Source: Phorcus lineatus (taxonomy: Eukaryota; Mollusca; Gastropoda; Trochida; Trochidae). Taken from it: 64,000 bases of DNA. This document shows, in pieces, positions 16,996 to 31,445 of the stretch (position 1 is its first letter; each line of letters opens with the position of its first letter). Where the stretch lies: contig OV121087.1 in NCBI GenBank assembly GCA_921293015.1, positions 40,720,630 through 40,784,629 on the forward strand, written 5' to 3'. The notes beneath the pieces are model-generated. The model was given only the letters and a program-made list of their open reading frames with translations. It was not told the DNA's origin and did not search any database. Both the position numbers and the translations under genes were made by a program.

Positions 16996-17250
16996 GAGGT
17001 GAGTGAGGTGAGGTGAGTTGGTGTTAAACACCCCTCTCAAGATTATTTCACTAGCGGCTGCTAGTAATATTGCAGGGAGAAAGCCCGCAACACCTTTGTG
17101 GTTATGCATTGCGGTGAAACCTGCGAGCATCGGCTGCAACTAGCGAACCATGTTTGGTACTGCGCTGAATTTCAGTGAAGCATTGCACCCAAACCTGACT
17201 GTGTATAGAACAGTTCTCTACTGCAGATAAAGTTGCGGGATTCGAACCAC
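16996..17250 (-). mobile_element. tRNA-derived SINE, copy A
   Basis: On the minus strand this copy starts near a tRNA B-box-like GGTTCGAATCCC. It runs through a conserved body (CAGTCAGGTTTGGGTGCAAT; GGTTTCACCGCAATGCATAA; GTTGCGGGCTTTCTCCCTGC) and ends in a GTTTAACACC-plus-TCACC/TCAC tail. It matches copies at 22340-24104, 29321-29480 and 36891-37148. The tRNA head upstream of the B box is missing, so this copy is 5'-truncated. Confidence 0.85.
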
Positions 17251-18137: not shown

Positions 18138-21100
18138 TCACATTCCTGATACAAATGAGTATGGGCTAACAGTCTGAACCTCATCATCATCATCATCTTC
18201 ATCATAATCATCATCAGAAATGTCTATTTGTTTCTCCAAACCCTGGAATATTGTTGACATTGAGTCGTTCAATATTGGCACATTTCGTCCCTTTGCAGGT
18301 GTACTGGTCCAACGTGAACTTTCAACTGAGGCAATACGCATATGGATCTGGGTTTGTGTATTGTCATATCTATTTCCACCAACTTTTTTCTTCTTCCGCG
18401 ACATGATCGGTTTCAAGGATGGTCCTTTTGGCACAAGAAACAAATCCTTTTCACAAGTTTTTAAGTCTTCAAGGGCATAATTGGTTGAAGATTTGACGTC
18501 ATGGGATGATTTCCATTTTCGTAATGTGTCGCCTGGCTGGGGCCTTTCAAACTCATCCCTTGATATTTTCACTTGAGCCCATGATAGATTTTCAGTTTTG
18601 GGCAAATTTGTTTGTGATTTTACTCTACACAATTCTTTCGATTTCTTTTCAACAATGAAAGGCTGTTTGAACGGTGAATGATTGCCAGTTTGACTGACTT
18701 TCACAGGTGAGTTGGAACCCAAACCAAAATAGTCTCTTTCCAAAATCTGTTCTGCGATCTTCTTCTGGGTGTGTTTCGTCTTATTTTGTTTCCTTGGCGA
18801 CAGGACCAGATCATTTGGCACTAAATCCCTTTGCTTAGTCAAAGACACTTCTCTGGATCCAAAGAGATTCTTTCTCAAAGGTTCTTCAGTTCTTTCCCGA
18901 GCTTGTCTTGATGTTGAAAGTAAATCACAAGAGCTATCTTTTCTTGTAGACATAGCAGAACTGGAGACATCTAAAACAAAATTTTGCTTCAGTTTGTCTT
19001 GCGATACATCAAAAAGTTCTTTGCTTGATTTTTTGCGTGGTTTTATCTGAGTTGGACTCCCAAGTCGTAGTTGTGAGAGTCCAGTTGATGGAGAGAGTCC
19101 GGAAGTCGACAAAATTTTCACAGGCTTTCTTCCACAAACAGGCGACAGCACCTCATCGTCCTTCAAAACCACATCTCTAACTTTCATGTTCTTTATTTTG
19201 TCACTTTTGGCATTCATTGAACATCTCTTCTTTTCATCAACAGAACAACTTTTCTTCACAATTTTGTCACTATTTACCGTGTGGGTGTCTTCAACAAAGA
19301 TTTCAATTCCATATTTGGCACCATTCCTGTCTTTTCCACTCTTGAGGACATTCAAAGAAAACCTGTCTGTCCCATCATTTATAACATTTCCCGCCCCATC
19401 AATTCTCTGTTGTCCATGATGCAAAGACTTTTTTAGGAATGAAGTATCAGAGGAATAACCAGTACAAGGCCTTGAAACTCTCTTTGTTTGAAAGACTCTT
19501 CGTTCCTCTGGGGAAGCAACACTACAAACCTCCATGTTTTCTGGAGATCTTTCTGAGGGTCTCAATTCTTGCTGATAGGCAACTCTTGCCTCTTCCAAAG
19601 AAATAAATCTATCAGTTTTCACATCTACAGCCATCATTGGACTTTCTTTCCTATTTTTGCTGGATCCAACTCTTCTTTCATGGACAAACTTTTCAGAGCC
19701 TCTAAAATCCTCTCTTCTATTGTTTCTAACTTCAATTGTGTTTCCTTCATTTTCAGATTTTTTAGCAGCCATGCACATCTTTGCAAAATCTTCTGGTCTG
19801 TCCCTGACCTCATCAGAGGACCTCTTGCTCTCAGGATTTTCAGAGCTCCAGCCAAGCTGTCTTCTTGCTCGAACTGAGGTCCTGATAATTTCACCTCGAG
19901 ATTTCGGTTCTGATGCACATCCTCCCAGCTTCAACCGGTCAAAGATCTGTTTCTTGCTGACTATTCCTCCAGATCGGGTGACCAAAGCTGGTGACCAACA
20001 GGCCTGAGGTATTTCAGACACAACATGGTCATGCTCCTTGACCGCTTGACCAAAACCTTCACACAGAGTTATGCCGTCATCTTGGGAACTTTTCAGTTTT
20101 GGATCATCAAATTCTGTACCAGACGTTATAAATTCAGATGACTGGGCAGTTTGTGGACTTGGTTTAACCTTCCCGTTTGATGTGTTATAATCCTTTGAGA
20201 CATCTTTATTCAGATTGTTCAGATGAAATTTTGGAAAATTGGTATTTTGGGCACAAAAACTTGTGAAAGGTTGACAAGGTGAACCAGAAAGATCATCCTT
20301 GGCAAATCCTTCAGGAACAAAGCTTTGATCTGTCTGGTGAATGTCATCTGCAGATCCAATTTCCTCACTAGCAAGTCCATAGCTTTTATCTTTCCAATGC
20401 TGAACCTTGTCTGCATTGAACCCAGTCCTTTGGCAAGATGGACTCAACACTTTTACAACTGTCATTGGCATAGGGGACCGTAGGTAATCAATCAACTGCT
20501 CTGAAGTATAAACAGGTTGAACAGGAGTAAATGCTCTCTTTCGAGCCCGAACAATTCTCCGTGGGGTCAGACAACCGGATTCATTTTGAGTTTCAAAAGA
20601 GGCATCTTGATCTACAGGCATTGTAGAGTCAAACATCTTTGTCTGCATTGACGGGAAACCAGAGTTTTCTATCACAACTGTTTTATTTTCCTTATTTATA
20701 TCCGCTTGAGACAGTTTTGGTGCAGTTTTGGATCCGAAGGGAGACATGCCAGGTTTTGGAACAGTATATGTGTAATTCAATGCGTCTGCTCCTACAGTTT
20801 GTGACGACCATTTTGAATTTGATTCTTTGAAAGGAGAACTTTTGACAGCTTCACCTGTTTTCCGTATCTTAGTAGGCGACAATAGTTGCTCCTTATGAGA
20901 ATCTTCACCACAGAATGATTCAGGGGGAGGATGAAAGTCTGTATTTTCTGTTGCCTGATTTTTCACCCAGTTCATTACTCTGTTGATTTTATCTTCATTT
21001 AAACAAGACATTCGGACTGAATTCTTAATTTCAGTAATTGGATGTTTTCCAGGGCCACTTTCAAAACCGCTGTCGCCCTCCTGTCGCTTCAAAAGCTGAT

Positions 21101-24100
21101 TTTTCTCAACATTTTCTGTGGAAAGATGTCCGGTTCCTCTTCTTTCCCCGTCAGTACTTTCGCTGTCTTCATTCCTACTGAACACATCCTTTGATCGTGA
21201 TTCCAGAGACCCAAAAACATTTTTGCATGAAGTGTCGGATTCTTGGTTTGAATATTCTGAAGAACTCCCAAGGGAATACCAGGCAGCTTCTTTCAGGTTT
21301 TCCACACCTCCCTTGAACTTTGACCTCTCTGCTAGGTCAAGGTCACCATCTAACTCATCCTGAAAGGAGTCAAGGTCAGATGTTTCGCTTTCACAATTCT
21401 GGAGGGCATTAGATGAGTCTCTGGAACTTAGTGTCTCAGCATCGCTCGGTTCGTTTTCATCGCTGTTGATAAAGCTGAGAATTTTCGAAGCATCATCTGT
21501 AAGAAATTTGTAAAAATTGCTATAAGAACATTGTAACCTTAACATAATTTTATCAAAATTATTCAAGAATAAAAATGATACAAGAAAATGTAATTGCCAT
21601 TGGTTAGTAATTTTCAAAATGTATTTTTTAGGTTTAAGATTTTAATTTCTGTGCATAACCAAATATCTTATTTAATAAATGACTTTCATTTAAATATCAA
21701 AAATGGGGAAAAGCAATTTTTAAAAAAAAATCAAAGCACTACCTTGAAAACTCACCTGCAAAATGTGATTGATCAACACTTCCATTCACATAGTGACTGT
21801 AGATCTGAAAGTTGGTGGAAAAAAAAAATGTAAATCAGGATCACAAAATGACAATTACAATTATGAAAGTAACATCACTAGACACAAATATCTTACCCTG
21901 TAAAGTGATAACTCCTAACAGCTTTTTGTATTGTAAATACTTTCATAAAAATGTTACATTTTGAAGAGTTTTTAATACAGGTACATCTATAAAGGCAAAT
22001 CATCTGTCAATTTGAAATGTACAGCTTAAATTTTTTTAAGTTATCGCATGGAGGTGACAAACATGACAAAAGCCACCAGGAAATGGCTTATCCCCTAAAC
22101 CCATCATAAGCTGAATGGAAAAGTTTTACGAGTATATTATTGAAAAAAGATGTAACATCCATGATCTAAAATTCTAAAACAACACACTATTGAAAGTTAA
22201 GGATCCCAAAGCGATTGCAGTTAGTAGAGGTTATGAAGCATTTTGACTTTGCACTATCAATTATTTTACACATGGAAATTATGATTTAATATTTTATGCG
22301 TAGTGTGGCCCACATATGTACCAGGGGTGTCCAATTAGAGGTGAGGTGAGGTGATATGGGGTTTAACGCTGCTTTCAAGTACTTCACTTACATCACAGCT
22401 GCTAGTATGATTGCAGGGAGAAAGCCCGCAACACCATTGTGGCTATGCGTTGTGGTGAAACCTGCAGGGATCACCCTGGAAAAATGGGTCTATGGGAAAA
22501 AATCCCCTTCATAGTTAAAGCAATGGGATTTTTAGGAGAGGTAATGGGATATTTTAAAAAACAAGATATTTTTAAGAATCGTTTATTACAAATGTTATAA
22601 TATATTTTAAAAAATGAATTGAACTTCTTTATTCAATATTGGAATTTGGAACACTTGTGAACTTAATTTGAAAAAATTATTGATGTCTTGATCACATTTT
22701 AGTTTTATGTGCCCGTGTTCTGCCAAGCATTTGGGACCAATTTCCCCACTTCAGAAAAAAAATTGGGTCAACTTTTACTGGGTACAGGTCAAGTCAGTTG
22801 CAAGTAAAAATCAAATCTAAAATCACTCTATATAAAATCATTTCTTTTGCTTGTATTTACATTATGTGCAAAATATGTGCATGCAATGTGTACATTACTT
22901 TAATCAGAGTTCAACAAATGATTAATATGATGTTTTAAAATATATAATATATAAAAAAATAACCTTTTTGTTTGCAGCTAACACATCTCTATCATGTAAA
23001 AATAATAAACAGCAACATGTTCTTTCTTTCCCTCAAAAGAGAAAAATCTTAATGATAGTGACTGTCACTCAGCCATTTTTTTCTACTATAAACCTTATTA
23101 ATTTCTGTCCAATTATTAAAATATATTTTATCAAAATTACAGTATTTTTTCAATTTTGAAGAAAATGATTTCCCAAGCAAGTCATGTGTGAGGAAAAATG
23201 CAATTGAAAATGTTTTATTACAATTGTCAGTACGTCATCTTTTAACACAAAAAAGTGAACGATATTTTATCACAGCTTTTTTTTAAGACATAAATAGGTA
23301 ACATGATGGAAGGAAATAGTAAAACAAAACGAAATATAAATCACGATTCGCGTCTGAGAAGTTGGCAATGTCGATGATTATTGATTTGTTTCTGTATTCA
23401 AAATATATCAAAATAATTAATTCCAAACAATTAATAGGTCTATGATTAAGTGATGAATATTTACGCATTCAAATAAATATTTTTTGTTCCTAATACAAAC
23501 TTATGAAACGTATGATAACTTATATATTTCATGGAAACATTGCGAAAAGCGTCTGCTTGTTCATCGGGCGAGTCAGTAGAGTTACTTCCCTTGCATATAT
23601 AATGTAACGCCAATTGTGATTGGCGCAGTAGCGAACGAAAGCTTCTCAACGTCCAATGAAATAAAGTGTTCTAGAATTAGTCGGTCTATGCGATATTACG
23701 GGCGCTCTTTACCGATCCAAATACGAAGTAGCTCTATTATGAATTGACATTTAATAAAAAGTTTTCTGAAGATCTGAAGATTGAAAATGAAAGAAAGATC
23801 CGATTTCATTTTATTAATGCGATTTTTATCGCACTGCATATTTTTAAATGGGATATTTATAATTTTAATGCAATATTATCGCAAAATCGCGGCCCAAAGT
23901 GATCCCTGAACCTGTGAGCATCTGCTGGAACTAGCGAACCATGGGTGATACTGCACTGAAACTCAGTGTAGCATTGCACCCAAACCTGACTGCGTGTAGA
24001 ACAGTTCTCAAATGCAGACAAGGTTGTCGAGCCCCAGGCGGGATTCGAACTACGGACCTCTTAATCCGAAGCTGAACACGCTTACAACTGTGCTTTTCCT

Positions 24101-27100
24101 TCCCGTGTCCAATTAGAAGCTGTTTTGGTAAATACAAAGAGACTAAAGGCTTTCATAGGTAGATTTAGTTTTAAAAATTGAGGGTTTGTGTGCATCAACG
24201 TCAACAATGCATTCCAGTGAACTTCTACATATTTCATACACTCTGATATTTAATTGAATGGTTCCCAAAACATTGTTATACATTTATTGCTGATTTGGAT
24301 GTTTTTGATGGTAGCTAAAATTGGGGATTGTGAAACTGAAATATAACAGAACCAAGTTCCTGAAGGTGGAAAAAGGTAAAAACTTTGAGTAAAATCTAAA
24401 AGGCTGTATTTGTATCCTTTTCTATTTGATCCTACCTACTTATGGGACACCCCTTGTAGTGCCATCTTATAAGTCATTACACAAATATGCATTCTAGACG
24501 CAACACTGCAAAAGTTTCAATTCACCCTAACCTAACAAAAAATATGCCATGAATTGCAAATTAAAAAAATAACTTGTGTTCTTGTCTTACCGATTGACAG
24601 TCAACTGGTCTAGTGGAGACATTAAAGTTACTCTGCGAGAGGGTTGTTATGAGCTTGTCAGCTGAAAAATATCAATTAATCAAATGTATATAATAAGAAA
24701 ATGAGAAGTCATTCAATAAATTCTAAATCAAATTCAATGAGAAAATTCAAACTTTTTGGGAAGATAAAGATTCATATTAACACGTAAGTCTTACACATAA
24801 TGAATATTTCTTAAAGGTGACTGCAATTTTTCTTCTTTTTAAATAAAAACTATTTTGGTACAACATTATATCATCTTTGCAATGTCACTGCATCTTTCAC
24901 CTAAGCTTGGATTTCATGTGTACATATTGGTGCACTTTGCGTGTTACGTTACATGTTGCGTAAGGCGTGCTTGTAATGACACTTTCAATAAGCGTGTAAG
25001 AGTTGAGTCTGAAATGATGTTGCGAGGCATATTTCTACCTCATATGGAAAACCATGGAGAATGGGTTATTGCAAAGTGTTAAATACAAATTAAATACTAC
25101 ACATGAACTTCGCCTTATCCTTAGAACATTTTGGTCATAGATGACTGTTGCATCACAAAATATACTGATTTCAGAAAAATAGTAGTTTATCAAAACGTTT
25201 GGATGTCATTCAGTTGGAGGAATCACCCAGCTGATGTGTCTGACACAAAATGGAAACTTGATATTTGTTGATGTTATTCTATAGGAAATAAAAAACATGA
25301 TCAGCGTTCATTTAAAAGAAGTGATATACGAATGACACAATTAATGAAATCCAGGTATGATCTCTCTTTGCTCACTATCAAGTGATAGGTTATACACATA
25401 AAAATCATAACCTATTTCAATTATCACTGTTAACATCATGGTCATCATGAAAATAATATAATCATAAAATCATATGAAATATAAAAAATAATCGTATTAA
25501 TAAAGTCTTCTCGACTCCTTTGAACTTGACCACTCAGGCTAATTTGACATAAATAAATCAGGAAGTGAAAGAGTTAAAGTTACCTCTACGCTTGGTTACT
25601 GCTAGCTTCGCTTCTCCAAATTTAATGGGTTTAAGTTTCTTCAAAGTACCTGAAATACAATATTTCCAGATAAAGAAGTGAAAATGATTTTCAATCCTTG
25701 AAAAATTAATACGTTTCCAATTATGAAATGAAAACCAACAACACAGAATAAGTGTTTTAACTTAACAAAGCGTTTGCATCCATAAAGCAGTAATCCGTAG
25801 CTCATCAGGCTTTATCTAGTTTGTGCTAAAAACTTTAATGAATTGAAAACAAAATCAAACAAATTGTTATCTAATATTTGCTCATTTCATTTCTATGTCT
25901 TTGAAATCAACATCACAGAAATTAACAGACAATAATTATTTTTCATTTCTCATCCATCTTTTCAACAAACTGATGTTTGTAATTTGTGTGAACTCAAACA
26001 AAAAATTTCTTCATCCAACACTTGTTTTGAATTTAAGAGCCCTTGTTTAAAATTCAACAGCATGTTGTAAATCTGTGAATGATTTTTAAACCCCTGATCT
26101 GATATCTTTTTAAGGTATCCTTTTTTTCCATAGATCTTAAACATGCCTGAAAACACAACCATGTTTAACCTTTTTTTTCTTTCTACATATATAGATATAT
26201 TCAAGTCAGCTGTTTTGCATGTATATTTAGTAATTTACCAGTTTTATTAACAATCTTTCCAGTCTTCATGCAAATCACATCACTCTCAGGGAAGTCCCGT
26301 CCATACTGAAATTAACAAGAATGAACATGAAGCAAGTACTGTAACAGCAGTTTAATAAAAGAAAAAGCCTTAAAAGTTACAAGACAAAAAGTGAAATTTT
26401 ACCGCCTGGCCTAAAATTAACCAGCTGCATTCGCTAATAACAGCCATGACTAACATGTAAATTTATAAAGAAAAATGTCCCAATTAATGTGGTTTCCACC
26501 AAAAATACCCTCATAACTATAAATCTAAAACTGATAAGCAATTTCATTGTAAAAAAACTATTTGTTTCAGCATTATGCCAAAATGGCTCTTCTCCATATA
26601 AATCAGAATATCTAAGATGATATATACACTGATGGGGATATAAAGAAACATCCTAAATTGGATACAGAAGCGTTACCTGTAGCCCAATCAGGATATATAA
26701 TCATAAATCCTTGAATAATTATGCAATCAGGTTGGGGAAATCCTGAAAATTATATTTGCTAAACCTATCTTAGCAGATATTCAAGGTAGATGATGTTTTG
26801 ACGTCCTCATGTTAGTTCAAAGGAAAAATTCAATGCAAACATGACGTCAAAACTCGGCAAAATTGATGGCTACTTTATTCCCAGCTTCCATACGTTGCTC
26901 GTGCGGCGGACTAATTTTTTAATTGACATCAAAATACATTAATTTGTCGACTAGTAGAACTTCTGGTTTTGGAAAGACGAGTCAATGAAAAGTCAATGTT
27001 GTGGTTCTCGTAAGTTTTGGGAAGTTTAGGGTTGTTTTTGTGTTGTTATTTAACGTTTTCACGCTTGTTTACGGACAGTGGTGATATTTATTGCTTTCAA

Positions 27101-27771
27101 ACTCAACAAATGTAGGGTTTCAAGTTATAAATTACATATAATCGGCAAAGTGATGAATGACGTGTTTGATTAGACATTTGCTGAATGATCGGAAAACGGT
27201 GTACACTAATCATCGGACCAAAATGTTCACTATACGTCGATCTATGTATGGTTTTCTACCTAGATTATACGTCGACTGACGTATTATACAACCTGGCAAT
27301 GTATAGCCTTATCACCTACTTTGAATAATTGCCAGGTCCATTAATAAGCCCTCATTGAATTTAATCATCTATCTTCAATATCTGCTAAGATAGATTTAGC
27401 AAATATAAACAAAAGTCATCAAAATCTTCTTTTTCATAAAAAAAGTTAAACTTTTCTAATAAATGTCTTTTCATATTCTAAATTATTTTTTCGAAAGCGG
27501 GAAAATATGCACAACATTGAACTATAACATAATTGATGTTTCCAATCGTTGTGACTTGACGTAATTCGAAGATACGAACAGTTTATTTTACCTTAGCACA
27601 AATGCTTTCTAAGTTTGTTTCAAATCTCTTATAGCTTTCGGCAGCGGCTGTCATAAACTCCTCCATATCAGAATTAAAAGCCCCCGCCATTTTCATACAT
27701 TCCAATCGAATTACACTTTTCGGATTTCCTAGACTCGAAATATCCACCTTGATCATAGAGTTTCCGGACAC
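18138..27771 (-). CDS. Candidate Scm3/HJURP-like CENP-A chaperone (six exons)
   Basis: Predicted exons on the minus strand are 27771-27592, 26305-26239, 25649-25584, 24661-24591, 21804-21756 and 21496-18138. All junctions are GT-AG, phases agree throughout, and the product is 1263 residues. Residues about 35-60 form a predicted helix (MEEFMTAAAESYKRF...). It is followed by KYGRDFPESDVICMKTGKIV (60-79) and KTGTLKKL (81-88). This resembles the Scm3 core, in which a helix ending in KYG/KYN is followed by an acidic-hydrophobic stretch, T-x-E/K-I-V and a Gly turn; human HJURP has KYNQPFEDTPVVQM at this place. Family members bind the CENP-A/H4 dimer and deposit it at centromeres. The last exon is 1119 codons, disordered, rich in Ser/Thr-Pro and basic (for example RRIVRARKRAF), and ends with an acidic run (SDDDYDEDDDDDE), as expected for a cell-cycle-regulated chromatin protein. 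The first ATG of exon 1 is used; upstream sequence is non-coding. Homology rests on the short N-terminal motif, so an unrelated disordered mitotic protein is possible. The exon structure itself is secure. Confidence 0.72.
22340..24104 (-). mobile_element. Complete SINE with 13-bp target duplication, split by a DNA transposon (copy B)
   Basis: Flanked by a perfect 13-bp direct repeat GTGTCCAATTAGA (22327-22339 and 24105-24117). On the minus strand the 5' head (24104 to about 24040) looks tRNA-derived, with the B box AGTTCGAATCCC. The body matches the other copies and the 3' tail is (CACCT)n. Removing the 1.44-kb insertion at 22465-23908 and one copy of its AACCTG duplication leaves a SINE of about 315 bp. 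It lies in intron 4 of the Scm3/HJURP-like gene, in the same orientation as the gene. Confidence 0.9.
22465..23908. mobile_element. hAT-like non-autonomous transposon nested in the SINE
   Basis: A 1444-bp insertion begins CAGGGATCAC and ends GTGATCCCTG, an exact 10-bp inverted terminal repeat of hAT style. It is bounded by AACCTG (22459-22464 and 23909-23914), a 6-bp duplication of SINE sequence. The interior is very AT-rich and the frames are short (62 codons or fewer) and unrecognisable, so there is no transposase. It is younger than the SINE it interrupts. Confidence 0.88.
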
Positions 27772-28212
27772 TACCGAAGCTTTCCGTATGATAACGGAAG
27801 TTGTGGCGTGAGCTCAGTGCTTTGCGTGTTATACGTTATTTACTACAATTAAAAGCTTCATCGACCCTGTTAAGAGTTTAAGCGACATACGATATAAGAG
27901 TTACCTTTCCTTGGTGGATTAAACGTGTTGGTATTTGTCAATCAATACTGAATCTGGCTTTTGAAATAAGAAAAGGTGATTTATTAGAATTGATGTCTCA
28001 ACGGACATGTATGTTACAATTAATATCGTTCAAAATGTTAGCAAAAGTTGTGGTATTTTGTATCACATTTTTACGTTGATTTTTTATTTTGACAAGACAC
28101 ATATCTTTCCACAGTGAACGTGATAATCATATTATAATAATAATAATTTGATATATCATGATAAATGTTATGAAATAATTATGAATAATTTGTAATTTTT
28201 ATCTATTTCAAG
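27772..28212. promoter_or_regulatory. Presumed bidirectional promoter between the Scm3/HJURP-like gene and MAT2B
   Basis: Only 441 bp separate the divergent start codons, so both promoters and both 5' leaders must lie here, unless an untranslated first exon lies further away. The part next to the minus-strand gene is GC-richer with some CpG (for example CGGAAGTTGTGGCGTGAGC near 27796, which includes an ETS-like GGAAG core). The half next to MAT2B is AT-rich. ATTTCAAG directly before the MAT2B ATG looks like a 3' splice site, so MAT2B probably has an upstream non-coding exon in this spacer. No TATA box is convincing. Confidence 0.6.
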
Positions 28213-31200
28213 ATGTCCAAGAGAGTTTTGCTAACTGGTGCATCAGGACTTTTAGGGAGAGCTATTTTTAAGGAGTTCTCAAATGATGCAACTTGGGAAG
28301 TTCTTGGCCTTGCCTTTTCTCGCTGCGGTGATAAACTGAAGAAAGTTGATTTGACAGATGCCTCTGCCATCAAGCAAGTGATACAAGAGTTTAAAGTTAG
28401 TAGCTAAGGGTTGATCAGGTGTAATTCTATTCAAGAAAAAGTAAATAAGTTAGTGTAAACTTGCAACCTTGATTGGCATGTATTTATTAATTAAAAAATT
28501 TTATTCTAGGGTGAAGTAGGGTCACAAACTCAAGAATATAGGTACTGTGACTAAATAAACCTCAATGCTTAATTTGTCACTATCTTAAAAGATATAATTA
28601 GTGATAATTAAGTGTAGTGTTCATAATGCAGGATTTTTCCAAGACCGTTGAATCTTTTTATTCCTAAATAACTATTTTTCTGTTCAATTTGTCAAATGGT
28701 TTTACAAAATGCAAGGGTTACTTTATCATGAGATTATGTTATCTTTATTGTAATTGCATTTGGTATTGTTGTCCATTGTGAAGTGTTCATTGCATGAACT
28801 TTGATATGCAATAGGGACATTAATTAGAAGGGGGCTGTTGAATGCGTCTCTTCTAGTTTAAAGTCGTTTTGCGTGCAATTACAACATTACCAGATGAGAG
28901 TTACGTACCTATTCATTAGGGATTATCTTAGCATGTAAAAGAGCTATTAAATCTCAACTCATGTTATGTCAGTTACAATATTCATACCTGATTTCCAATT
29001 GTTACGTTAGTAGAAGAAGTTAAGGAAATCAAATTTTGTAAGGAAAAATATTTTTAGAATTGAAATTTATTTTAAAATCAGAGTCTTTTTCACAGCCGTC
29101 AGTTGTAATCCACTCTGCGGCGGAGAGACGTCCAGACGTGGTAGAGAAGCAAGCAGAAGCAACACATAGGATCAATATACAGGCCACAAGGACACTCTGT
29201 GAGGAGGCAGGTAAGAAGAAACTTTTTCCTTTCCTTACCATCGAGATATTTGTGTTCCCCATCTTTATTTTTTACTACTTTTCTCATTTCTGATTCTCTG
29301 AATTTCAGCACAATAACATCCATGGGTTTGCTAGCTCCAGTCGATGCTCTCAGGTTTCACCAAAATGGATAGCCACAATGGTGTTGTAGGCTTTATCCAT
29401 GCAAAAATACCAGCAGTCATGATATAGATGAGATACTCTTAGAAATGGCGTTAAACCCCAAATCACTTCACCTCACCTCATTTCTCAAGGAGATGTTACT
29501 CTGTTATAGATATTCAATGTATGAATCTTGGTTTTTTTTCTCAGCAAAGGTTGGAGCATGGGTGATGTTTATCAGTACAGACTACGTATTTGATGGGACT
29601 AACCCCCCTTACAAAGTGGACGCAGAGCCAAACCCCCTCAACAAGTATGGTCAGAGTAAGAGAGAGGGGGAAGTGGTCACTTTGGACATCAGCAAAGGTC
29701 AGTATATTAAGGATGCATTAAAAAATGAAAGTATCAAATGCAATGAATGCTCACAATATTTATTAATTGAATACTTTACAAACTAGTGGTGCCTGCATAA
29801 AAAAAAAGCAAAACGACACATTTTAAGGTCATCCAATGCTTTTGTCTTTAAGAAGTAAAAGCACAAGAAAGTTGAAAATTTGTGAAATATTTCCTTGACC
29901 ATTGCAAATCGTACCGGGTAGAGGTAAATTTAATGACCAATGATAAAAGCCACGTGTTCAATGCCTATGTAACTCAATTTGATGATAGTTTTCAAGAAGA
30001 AACTAGCTTATTACAATGTGACACATTAATCTTTTTAGACAATGTCGTCTTGCGAGTACCAATCTTGTACGGAGATGTGGAATATCTTGGCGAGAGTGCA
30101 GTAACCTTGCTATTTGAGAAGGTCAAGGACACAGGAACAAATTGTGTTATGTCAGACTACGAGAGACGGTATCCAACACTGACCGATGATATCGCTGTGG
30201 TCATTCGACAGCTGTCAGACAAAAAACTTCAGGTACAGTAACATTATAAAATCTCTGGGCATGTTTTCTGTAATAATAAAATAAGGGGATTTTAAAGTTA
30301 TAGTTTAAAGTGAAATTAAATGATGAATACATGAAATATAAATTTAAAAAATGTACAATAATAATGCTTAATAGACCAAGTTGAATATCGATAAAAACCA
30401 AAATTATGGGTATAAAGTATGTGTACCTAAGCCAATGTGGTGTGGGATTCTTTGATACCAAAGAAAGCATCTTTCTTACATATCAAGAAAAAACAAGACA
30501 GGGCTGAACACGCATCCAATATATCAAGGTCAATCAAAAACTGCCTTTGTCTTCTAAAATTTGAAAAGCTGTTACTGTAAAATTGAGCTGCCTGTCTGTT
30601 TTAAAATTTAACGAACCCATTGTGGATATTTTGTTTATTTTCCAAACTTGTCATGACAATTTTATAAAGTAGTCAGGGATATATTTTAAATTCATCAGTG
30701 TGTCCGACCATCCTTCTGTCACACTTTTTGTTCCGATCATTTCTCGAACAGTCATCGTCCAAATGTACCATAACTTGATAAATGTAATCATGAATATAGC
30801 CTTTTGTGCATAATACTTGCGTAATAAAGCCTCTAAACAACTCCAAAAATATATTATGGTTCATTGAACTTGGTATACATGTTGACTTGATTTGCTCCCA
30901 TTGGGTAAGACCCATGTATGTAATATTTCGGGGTTCCCATGGTAACATGATTAATTCTGACACAGTGAGAAAATCTTTTATCTGCTCAAAGATACATAGA
31001 TGTTTGCTTTGTGAAATGCGAGGGTAAAACCACATTGCTGTTTTAAATTTGTTTTTAACTTTTAATGCAATATCTGTCTTTGAAGCATTGTGGACAATAT
31101 GGAAAGCTTGGGTATAAGAGTCAGCTGTGTTCACTTTCACTGATGCCTTTCTTTAATATTTTAGTAAAAATGATTTTCATTATTAATTTTCAGGATAAAT

Positions 31201-31445
31201 CTTTAGGAGGCATCTTTCACTGGACGGGTGATGAGAATATGACTAAGTATGACATGGCGGTCGCTATGGCAGAAGCATTCAATTTGCCAACTAATCACAT
31301 CGTAGCTGACAATAAGCCGACAAGTGGTGCCCCGCGACCCTTCAACTCTCACCTTGACCCTTCAAGGTTGGAGGCACTCGGCTGTAACCAACGAACAAAA
31401 TTCAAAGAGGGAATTACAAAAGTTTTACAGAAATATAAACCATGA
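28213..31445 (+). CDS. MAT2B, regulatory beta subunit of methionine adenosyltransferase
   Basis: Five exons (28213-28395, 29096-29210, 29545-29697, 30039-30232, 31194-31445) join in phase at GT-AG sites to give 298 residues. The first donor is GTTAGT, the others standard. The protein is an extended SDR related to dTDP-4-dehydrorhamnose reductase. It shows an NADP-binding TGASGLLG (residues 8-15), AAERRPDVVE, STDYVFDGTNPPY (110-122), a YGQSK YxxxK motif (Y134, K138), LRVPILYG and FHWTGDENMTKY. These blocks closely match vertebrate MAT2B over the whole length. MAT2B binds the catalytic MAT2A subunit in the cytosol and nucleus and tunes S-adenosylmethionine synthesis. The vertebrate N-terminal extension of about 30 residues is absent from this start; an upstream coding exon cannot be excluded. 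Intron 2 carries a SINE fragment. Nothing suggests loss of function. Confidence 0.95.
29321..29480 (+). mobile_element. SINE fragment inside MAT2B intron 2 (copy C)
   Basis: Reads in the plus sense from CATGGGTTTGCTAGCTCCAG through CTCAGGTTTCACC to GGCGTTAAACCCC and a CACCTCACCTCA tail. It is thus the 3' half of the SINE family seen on the minus strand elsewhere in this window. The tRNA head is missing and the middle is diverged. It ends about 65 bp before MAT2B exon 3. Confidence 0.8.

Follow-up and report, generated by a model that had tools for sequence, protein, structure and literature searches.

A candidate Scm3/HJURP-type CENP-A chaperone gene in the mollusc Phorcus lineatus

INTRODUCTION

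Scm3/HJURP candidates are reported in most of the metazoan lineages examined, including Biomphalaria glabrata (KAI8798300.1, HMMer E 3.9e-15), C. teleta (Capitella), and Schistosoma japonicum (Hollis et al., Sci Adv, July 2026; PMC13322267). The scm3 domain is described there as the definitive conserved feature of these proteins, which are long, polar, and otherwise unconserved across Metazoa, that of the snail included (PMC13322267). According to the same report, the helix and strand of the domain lie antiparallel to the alpha2 helix and loop 1 of CENP-A, and the chaperone is brought in through the Mis18 complex or CENP-C (PMC13322267). The DXGXL motif is considered ancestral in opisthokonts, with a weaker constraint in metazoans, and a case is made for Drosophila CAL1 as a highly diverged Scm3/HJURP ortholog (PMC13322267). 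A sequence-only reading of the DNA described here had called CAL1 unrelated and the other invertebrates poorly described; in light of what this report describes, both remarks are out of date.

Here we analyze a gene located in a 64,000-nucleotide stretch of Phorcus lineatus DNA (contig OV121087.1; the whole stretch is called the window below). Our search of the open literature turned up no further account of a mollusc HJURP, and none of the P. lineatus gene.

GENE ORGANIZATION

The candidate gene lies on the minus strand (27756..18138) and is made up of six exons (Table 1). All five introns have a GT donor and an AG acceptor, and every join is in phase, giving 1258 codons in one frame that closes with TGA (18140..18138), as the sequence-only reading had proposed for its six in-phase exons. 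The length of 1263 residues given in that reading needs correction, because its five extra codons (27771..27757) start at GTG, while the first in-frame ATG (27756) yields 1258 residues. Translation from ATG 27690 would yield 1236 residues; this ATG has A at -3 and G at +4. The usual start-context rule favors these two bases, and by that rule ATG 27690 would have a better context than ATG 27756. The exon joins are predictions resting on the splice signals, the phase, and the profile score described below.

Exon 1 codes for the N-terminal portion of the scm3 domain through the K of a KY pair, and exon 2 for the remaining core, that is, the Y of this pair, an acidic/short hydrophobic stretch, and TGKIV; the Pfam match terminates within exon 3. 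The stop-to-stop frame around exon 6 is 1167 codons long, while the runner-up among the 16 frames of at least 110 codons in the window has 185; the exon 6 frame extends upstream no farther than the splice acceptor region. An ATTAAA is found 6 nt ahead of the nearest AATAAA, again as a sequence match.

Table 1. Positions of the predicted exons and neighboring features in the window.
Feature	Position	Strand	Basis or remark
Exon 1	27592..27756	-	Open frame and GT donor; ATG 27756, ATG 27696, ATG 27690
Exon 2	26239..26305	-	AG/GT borders; encodes YGRDFPESDVICMKTGKIVNKTG
Exon 3	25584..25649	-	AG/GT borders, phase 1; TLKKLKP..., basic stretch
Exon 4, linker	24591..24661	-	AG/GT borders, phase kept
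Exon 5, linker, 49 bases	21756..21804	-	AG/GT borders, phase kept
Exon 6, giant terminal, 3,359 bases	18138..21496	-	Open frame, TGA stop
Nearest AATAAA	17932..17937	-	About 200 nt past the stop codon; sequence match only
Intergenic stretch, HJURP first ATG to MAT2B ATG	27757..28212		457-523 bases between the starts, depending on the ATG chosen
MAT2B gene	28213-31445	+	Head to head with the HJURP gene
1.44-kb element	22465-23908		15-nt imperfect terminal inverted repeats, flanking AACCTG duplications
SINE-like repeat, two copies	17000-17250 and 22335-24110		GGTGAGGTGAGGTGA...; tRNA-like GGATTCGAAC end (by eye)

The gene arranged head to head with the HJURP gene is that for MAT2B (methionine adenosyltransferase 2 subunit beta), whose first 61 residues from the start codon match human-named MAT2B chains (best E 2.5e-11). 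Judging from this arrangement, the stretch between the two genes is possibly a shared promoter.

THE SCM3 DOMAIN

The first 101 residues of the protein, counted from ATG 27690, matched the Pfam family Scm3 (PF10384) with 41.6 bits (E 9.7e-11), and the whole 1258-residue protein matched it with 35.7 bits (E 7.1e-9), both above the curated cut-off of 24.3 bits. Scm3 was the sole Pfam family at E <= 10 for the whole protein and the first 101 residues alike, and the match covers profile positions 4-52 of 53. It spans residues 37-84 of the 1258-residue form, close to the core placed at residues 35-88 in the sequence-only reading. That reading had also named a profile search among the tests that could refute it, and in this search Scm3 was matched and no other family clearly was, in agreement with the proposed Scm3/HJURP-type identity. 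The order of motifs in the N-terminus is a helix, KYGRDF, an acidic-hydrophobic stretch, TGKIV, and G; in the translation, the KY pair closes the helix and is followed by the acidic/short-hydrophobic stretch (CAKYGRDFPESDVICMKT).

Exon 1 by itself gave no Pfam match, and exons 2 and 3 by themselves matched Scm3 with 21.9 bits (E 1.4e-4), which is under the cut-off; the Scm3 signal therefore depends on the proposed splicing. The score passes the cut-off once exon 1 is spliced to exon 2, a join that falls between the two residues of the KY pair. A six-frame search of the whole genome with the Scm3 family gave 0 matches; this negative result counts against the identification, but such an outcome is expected for a domain interrupted by introns. 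No Scm3 match was obtained with the reversed N-terminus or with a hand-typed scramble, used as controls, and the prokaryote-oriented NCBIfam library had no match to the protein.

Local alignment with the scm3 region of human HJURP gave a score of 52, which none of 2000 shuffles reached (19.1 +/- 3.6); nine of the 39 aligned residues are identical, including R-F and K-Y. Against PDB sequences, the N-terminus alone found no HJURP or Scm3 and only one unrelated match (E 1.3). A two-sequence profile made of the N-terminus and HJURP matched HJURP (3r45), owing to the inclusion of HJURP itself, as well as designed helical proteins and others, and no fungal Scm3 or CAL1 chain was among its matches. 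When the assembly (958 Mb, 74 contigs) was searched with the first 101 residues, the four matches were all to the gene's own exons, and so no second scm3 gene was detected with this N-terminal query. Taken on this evidence, the identification as an HJURP/Scm3-type chaperone gene is solid, and we have little doubt that the gene encodes a molluscan member of the Scm3/HJURP family that is a candidate chaperone of CENP-A/H4.

THE LONG C-TERMINAL PART

Beyond position 105, the protein continues for 1153 residues of polar composition (13% Ser and 9% Lys), with 54% A/R/G/Q/S/P/E/K and 29% W/C/F/I/Y/V/L/N, from which we predict that they are mostly disordered. No Pfam domain was found in exon 6 when the whole protein was searched at E <= 10. 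The C-terminal part has 21 [ST]P sites, against 10.9 +/- 2.8 in shuffled sequences, and seven [ST]Px[KR] sites, against 1.7 +/- 1.2, and neither number was reached by any of 1000 shuffles. Of the description of this extension in the sequence-only reading, the richness in Ser/Thr-Pro and the single giant exon are thus borne out, while its disorder is supported as far as composition indicates. Five overlapping [DE]4 windows were counted, against 0.5 expected (as many in 0 of 1000 shuffles), and all of them fall within a single stretch close to the C-terminal end (DEDDDDDE, residue 1238). KEN (one) and RxxL (four) are at chance level, since 305 and 615 of the 1000 shuffles, respectively, had as many. 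The Ser/Thr-Pro sites would fit control by cell-cycle kinases.

CANDIDATE PARTNER GENES IN THE SAME GENOME

A human CENP-A core query matched 28 places in the genome, mostly H3, and scores were taken for the best candidates. A three-exon gene on C39 encodes a 125-residue C-terminal core that is CENP-A-like; its N-terminal exon was not found. Loop 1 of this core is one residue longer than that of H3 and contains a Trp, and alpha2 has VHLFEDA and the glutamate of ALQEA. In the targeting region it scores 111 against human CENP-A, with 25 identities, as compared with 99 and 23 for the mollusc's own H3. Over the whole core, it is nearer to H3 (295) than to human CENP-A (246), H3 itself scoring 255 against human CENP-A, and the best 60 of its 173 PDB matches are all H3. 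Judging from the diagnostic positions, we consider it likely, with good confidence, that this gene codes for CENP-A, even though it is nearer H3 overall. As for a client of the chaperone, a CENP-A-like core, nearer H3 by overall similarity, is thus present in the genome.

A diverged, intron-bearing H3 variant is encoded at C7:38081695-38082372. It keeps the MARTKQ start, but its loop 1 is changed (RRLKPGMKIQTPALFAL); the second exon is almost that of an H3, and exon 1 has no clear donor site. Compared with an H3.3-like gene on C2, the variant shows saturation at synonymous sites, whereas the replacement changes per site amount to 0.08 for exon 2 and 0.41 for the core of exon 1, which argues that the variant is old and has been kept. 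It was rejected as CENP-A on account of its greater similarity to H3 and of a loop 1 without any lengthening.

The CENP-C cupin (PF11699) was matched on C5 by two exons with 20.4 and 16.7 bits, respectively, and with 47.4 bits when they were joined (cut-off 29). Eight of the 14 prokaryote control genomes also gave matches in this search, none above the cut-off, so that single-exon scores mean little here and it is the joined-exon score that counts. Another match to this family on C15, above the cut-off together with its neighbors, was rejected as a repeated frame (GNHYCVSK...).

A SANTA exon of the M18BP1 type was found on C7 (30.2 bits, cut-off 21). Three SANTA matches lie within 2 kb at C7:25434799-25436740, two of them over the same C-terminal part of the domain, and this cluster may represent two SANTA domains or tandem M18BP1-like genes. 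The Yippee-Mis18 family had 11 matches in the genome, three of which were above the cut-off of 26.6. Two of these exons lie 5.3 kb apart on C12 (35.7 and 31.5 bits); the family covers both Yippee and Mis18, and from its resemblance to Mis18 we take the pair to be a likely Mis18. The match above the cut-off on C7 reads as Yippee, and was rejected as Mis18.

REPEATS AND HOST GENOME

Within the copy of the SINE-like repeat in intron 4 (Table 1) lies the 1.44-kb element, of which there are at least 28 copies in the genome, itself included, that are 92-100% identical across 1440 or more of its 1442 bases. This number is a lower bound, 40 of the 153 candidates having been scored. The element is a recently spread, apparently non-autonomous DNA transposon.

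The haemocyanin beta-sandwich family, which we take to stand for molluscan haemocyanin, had 16 matches in the genome, all above the cut-off and all on one contig. When one of the units was compared with 14 haemocyanin sequences, PDB 3j32 was the nearest, and the species of this entry points to a gastropod as the probable host. The haemocyanin thus indicates a mollusc, probably a gastropod, as the host, in agreement with the invertebrate and lophotrochozoan origin suggested for the protein in the sequence-only reading.

PROPOSED FUNCTION AND ALTERNATIVE EXPLANATIONS

The scm3 domain (approximately residues 37-84) would form a long helix up to the KY pair, followed by a short beta strand, and this helix and strand would run alongside loop 1 and alpha2 of CENP-A, thereby holding the CENP-A/H4 dimer apart from other histones. 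The chaperone would be recruited via Mis18-M18BP1 and/or CENP-C. Because each of the likely partners has a candidate gene in this genome, the usual mechanism is the simplest reading, and the protein is most likely a CENP-A/H4 chaperone recruited in this way; we infer its binding, recruitment, timing, and loading from the family and from these likely partners.

It is extremely improbable that the Scm3 match is a product of chance or of exon picking. Such an origin might be suspected because the exons were picked by a reader who was seeking a motif of this type and because exon 1 alone is unmatched, but the E-value of the spliced peptide is 9.7e-11, and exons 2 and 3 already reach 1.4e-4 without exon 1. 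We also think it very unlikely that exon 6 comes from a different gene and that the scm3 protein is short. The agreement of splice signals and phase at all five joins and the end of the exon 6 frame at its splice acceptor region argue for one gene, as do the long polar C-terminal parts described as usual in the family (PMC13322267), against the facts that the joins are predicted, that no domain was found in exon 6, and that the upstream exons are small and widely spaced.

A true Scm3/HJURP-family protein might instead have shifted to another histone client or to DNA repair, with CENP-A loaded otherwise. The strongly diverged and long-maintained H3 variant on C7 could then be a second client, but a likely CENP-A, the CENP-C cupin, SANTA, and Mis18 are all found in the genome, where the N-terminal query picked up only this one scm3 gene, and we regard such a shift as very improbable. 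In a related and equally doubtful speculation, the one scm3 chaperone would serve both the likely CENP-A on C39 and the variant with the altered loop 1 on C7, each a specialized form of H3; if this were true, the chromatin of the centromere (or germline) would carry two marks, both loaded by one chaperone.

COMPARISON WITH KNOWN SYSTEMS AND CONCLUSION

Returning to the preferred reading of a CENP-A/H4 chaperone, the protein has the order of the scm3 core and the KY pair in common with human HJURP (PDB 3r45 chain C), while the TLTY...GLRIWGG stretch of the human protein contrasts with the shorter, fungal-looking TGKIVNKTGTL of the mollusc. Vertebrate HJURP carries middle and C-terminal HJURP Pfam domains beside scm3. 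Nothing like these families was found in the mollusc protein, for which Scm3 is the only family at E <= 10, and we therefore do not assign it to the vertebrate-type HJURP sub-type. Almost the full length of the fungal Scm3 profile is matched (positions 4-52 of 53), and the D of the fungal DXGXL is K in the mollusc protein (KTGTL), in which G and L are kept. This replacement is a point against the identification, though the motif, relaxed in metazoans according to PMC13322267, would not be a defining feature in animals. CAL1 of Drosophila has the same job; our two-sequence profile reached no CAL1 chain. Biomphalaria is a gastropod. Its protein KAI8798300.1 is likewise molluscan and, as described in the report, is likewise long and polar, with the scm3 domain at its N-terminus (PMC13322267).

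The P. lineatus gene extends a known family by another molluscan member and is not new in kind. It adds a clearly recognizable Scm3/HJURP protein, together with partner candidates (CENP-A, CENP-C, SANTA/M18BP1, and Mis18), from one mollusc genome. A single sequence of its scm3 core is enough to clear the Pfam cut-off by a wide margin, and so the protein could be a stepping stone to more diverged relatives. The finding supports, without changing, the 2026 revision according to which animals generally kept the chaperone.
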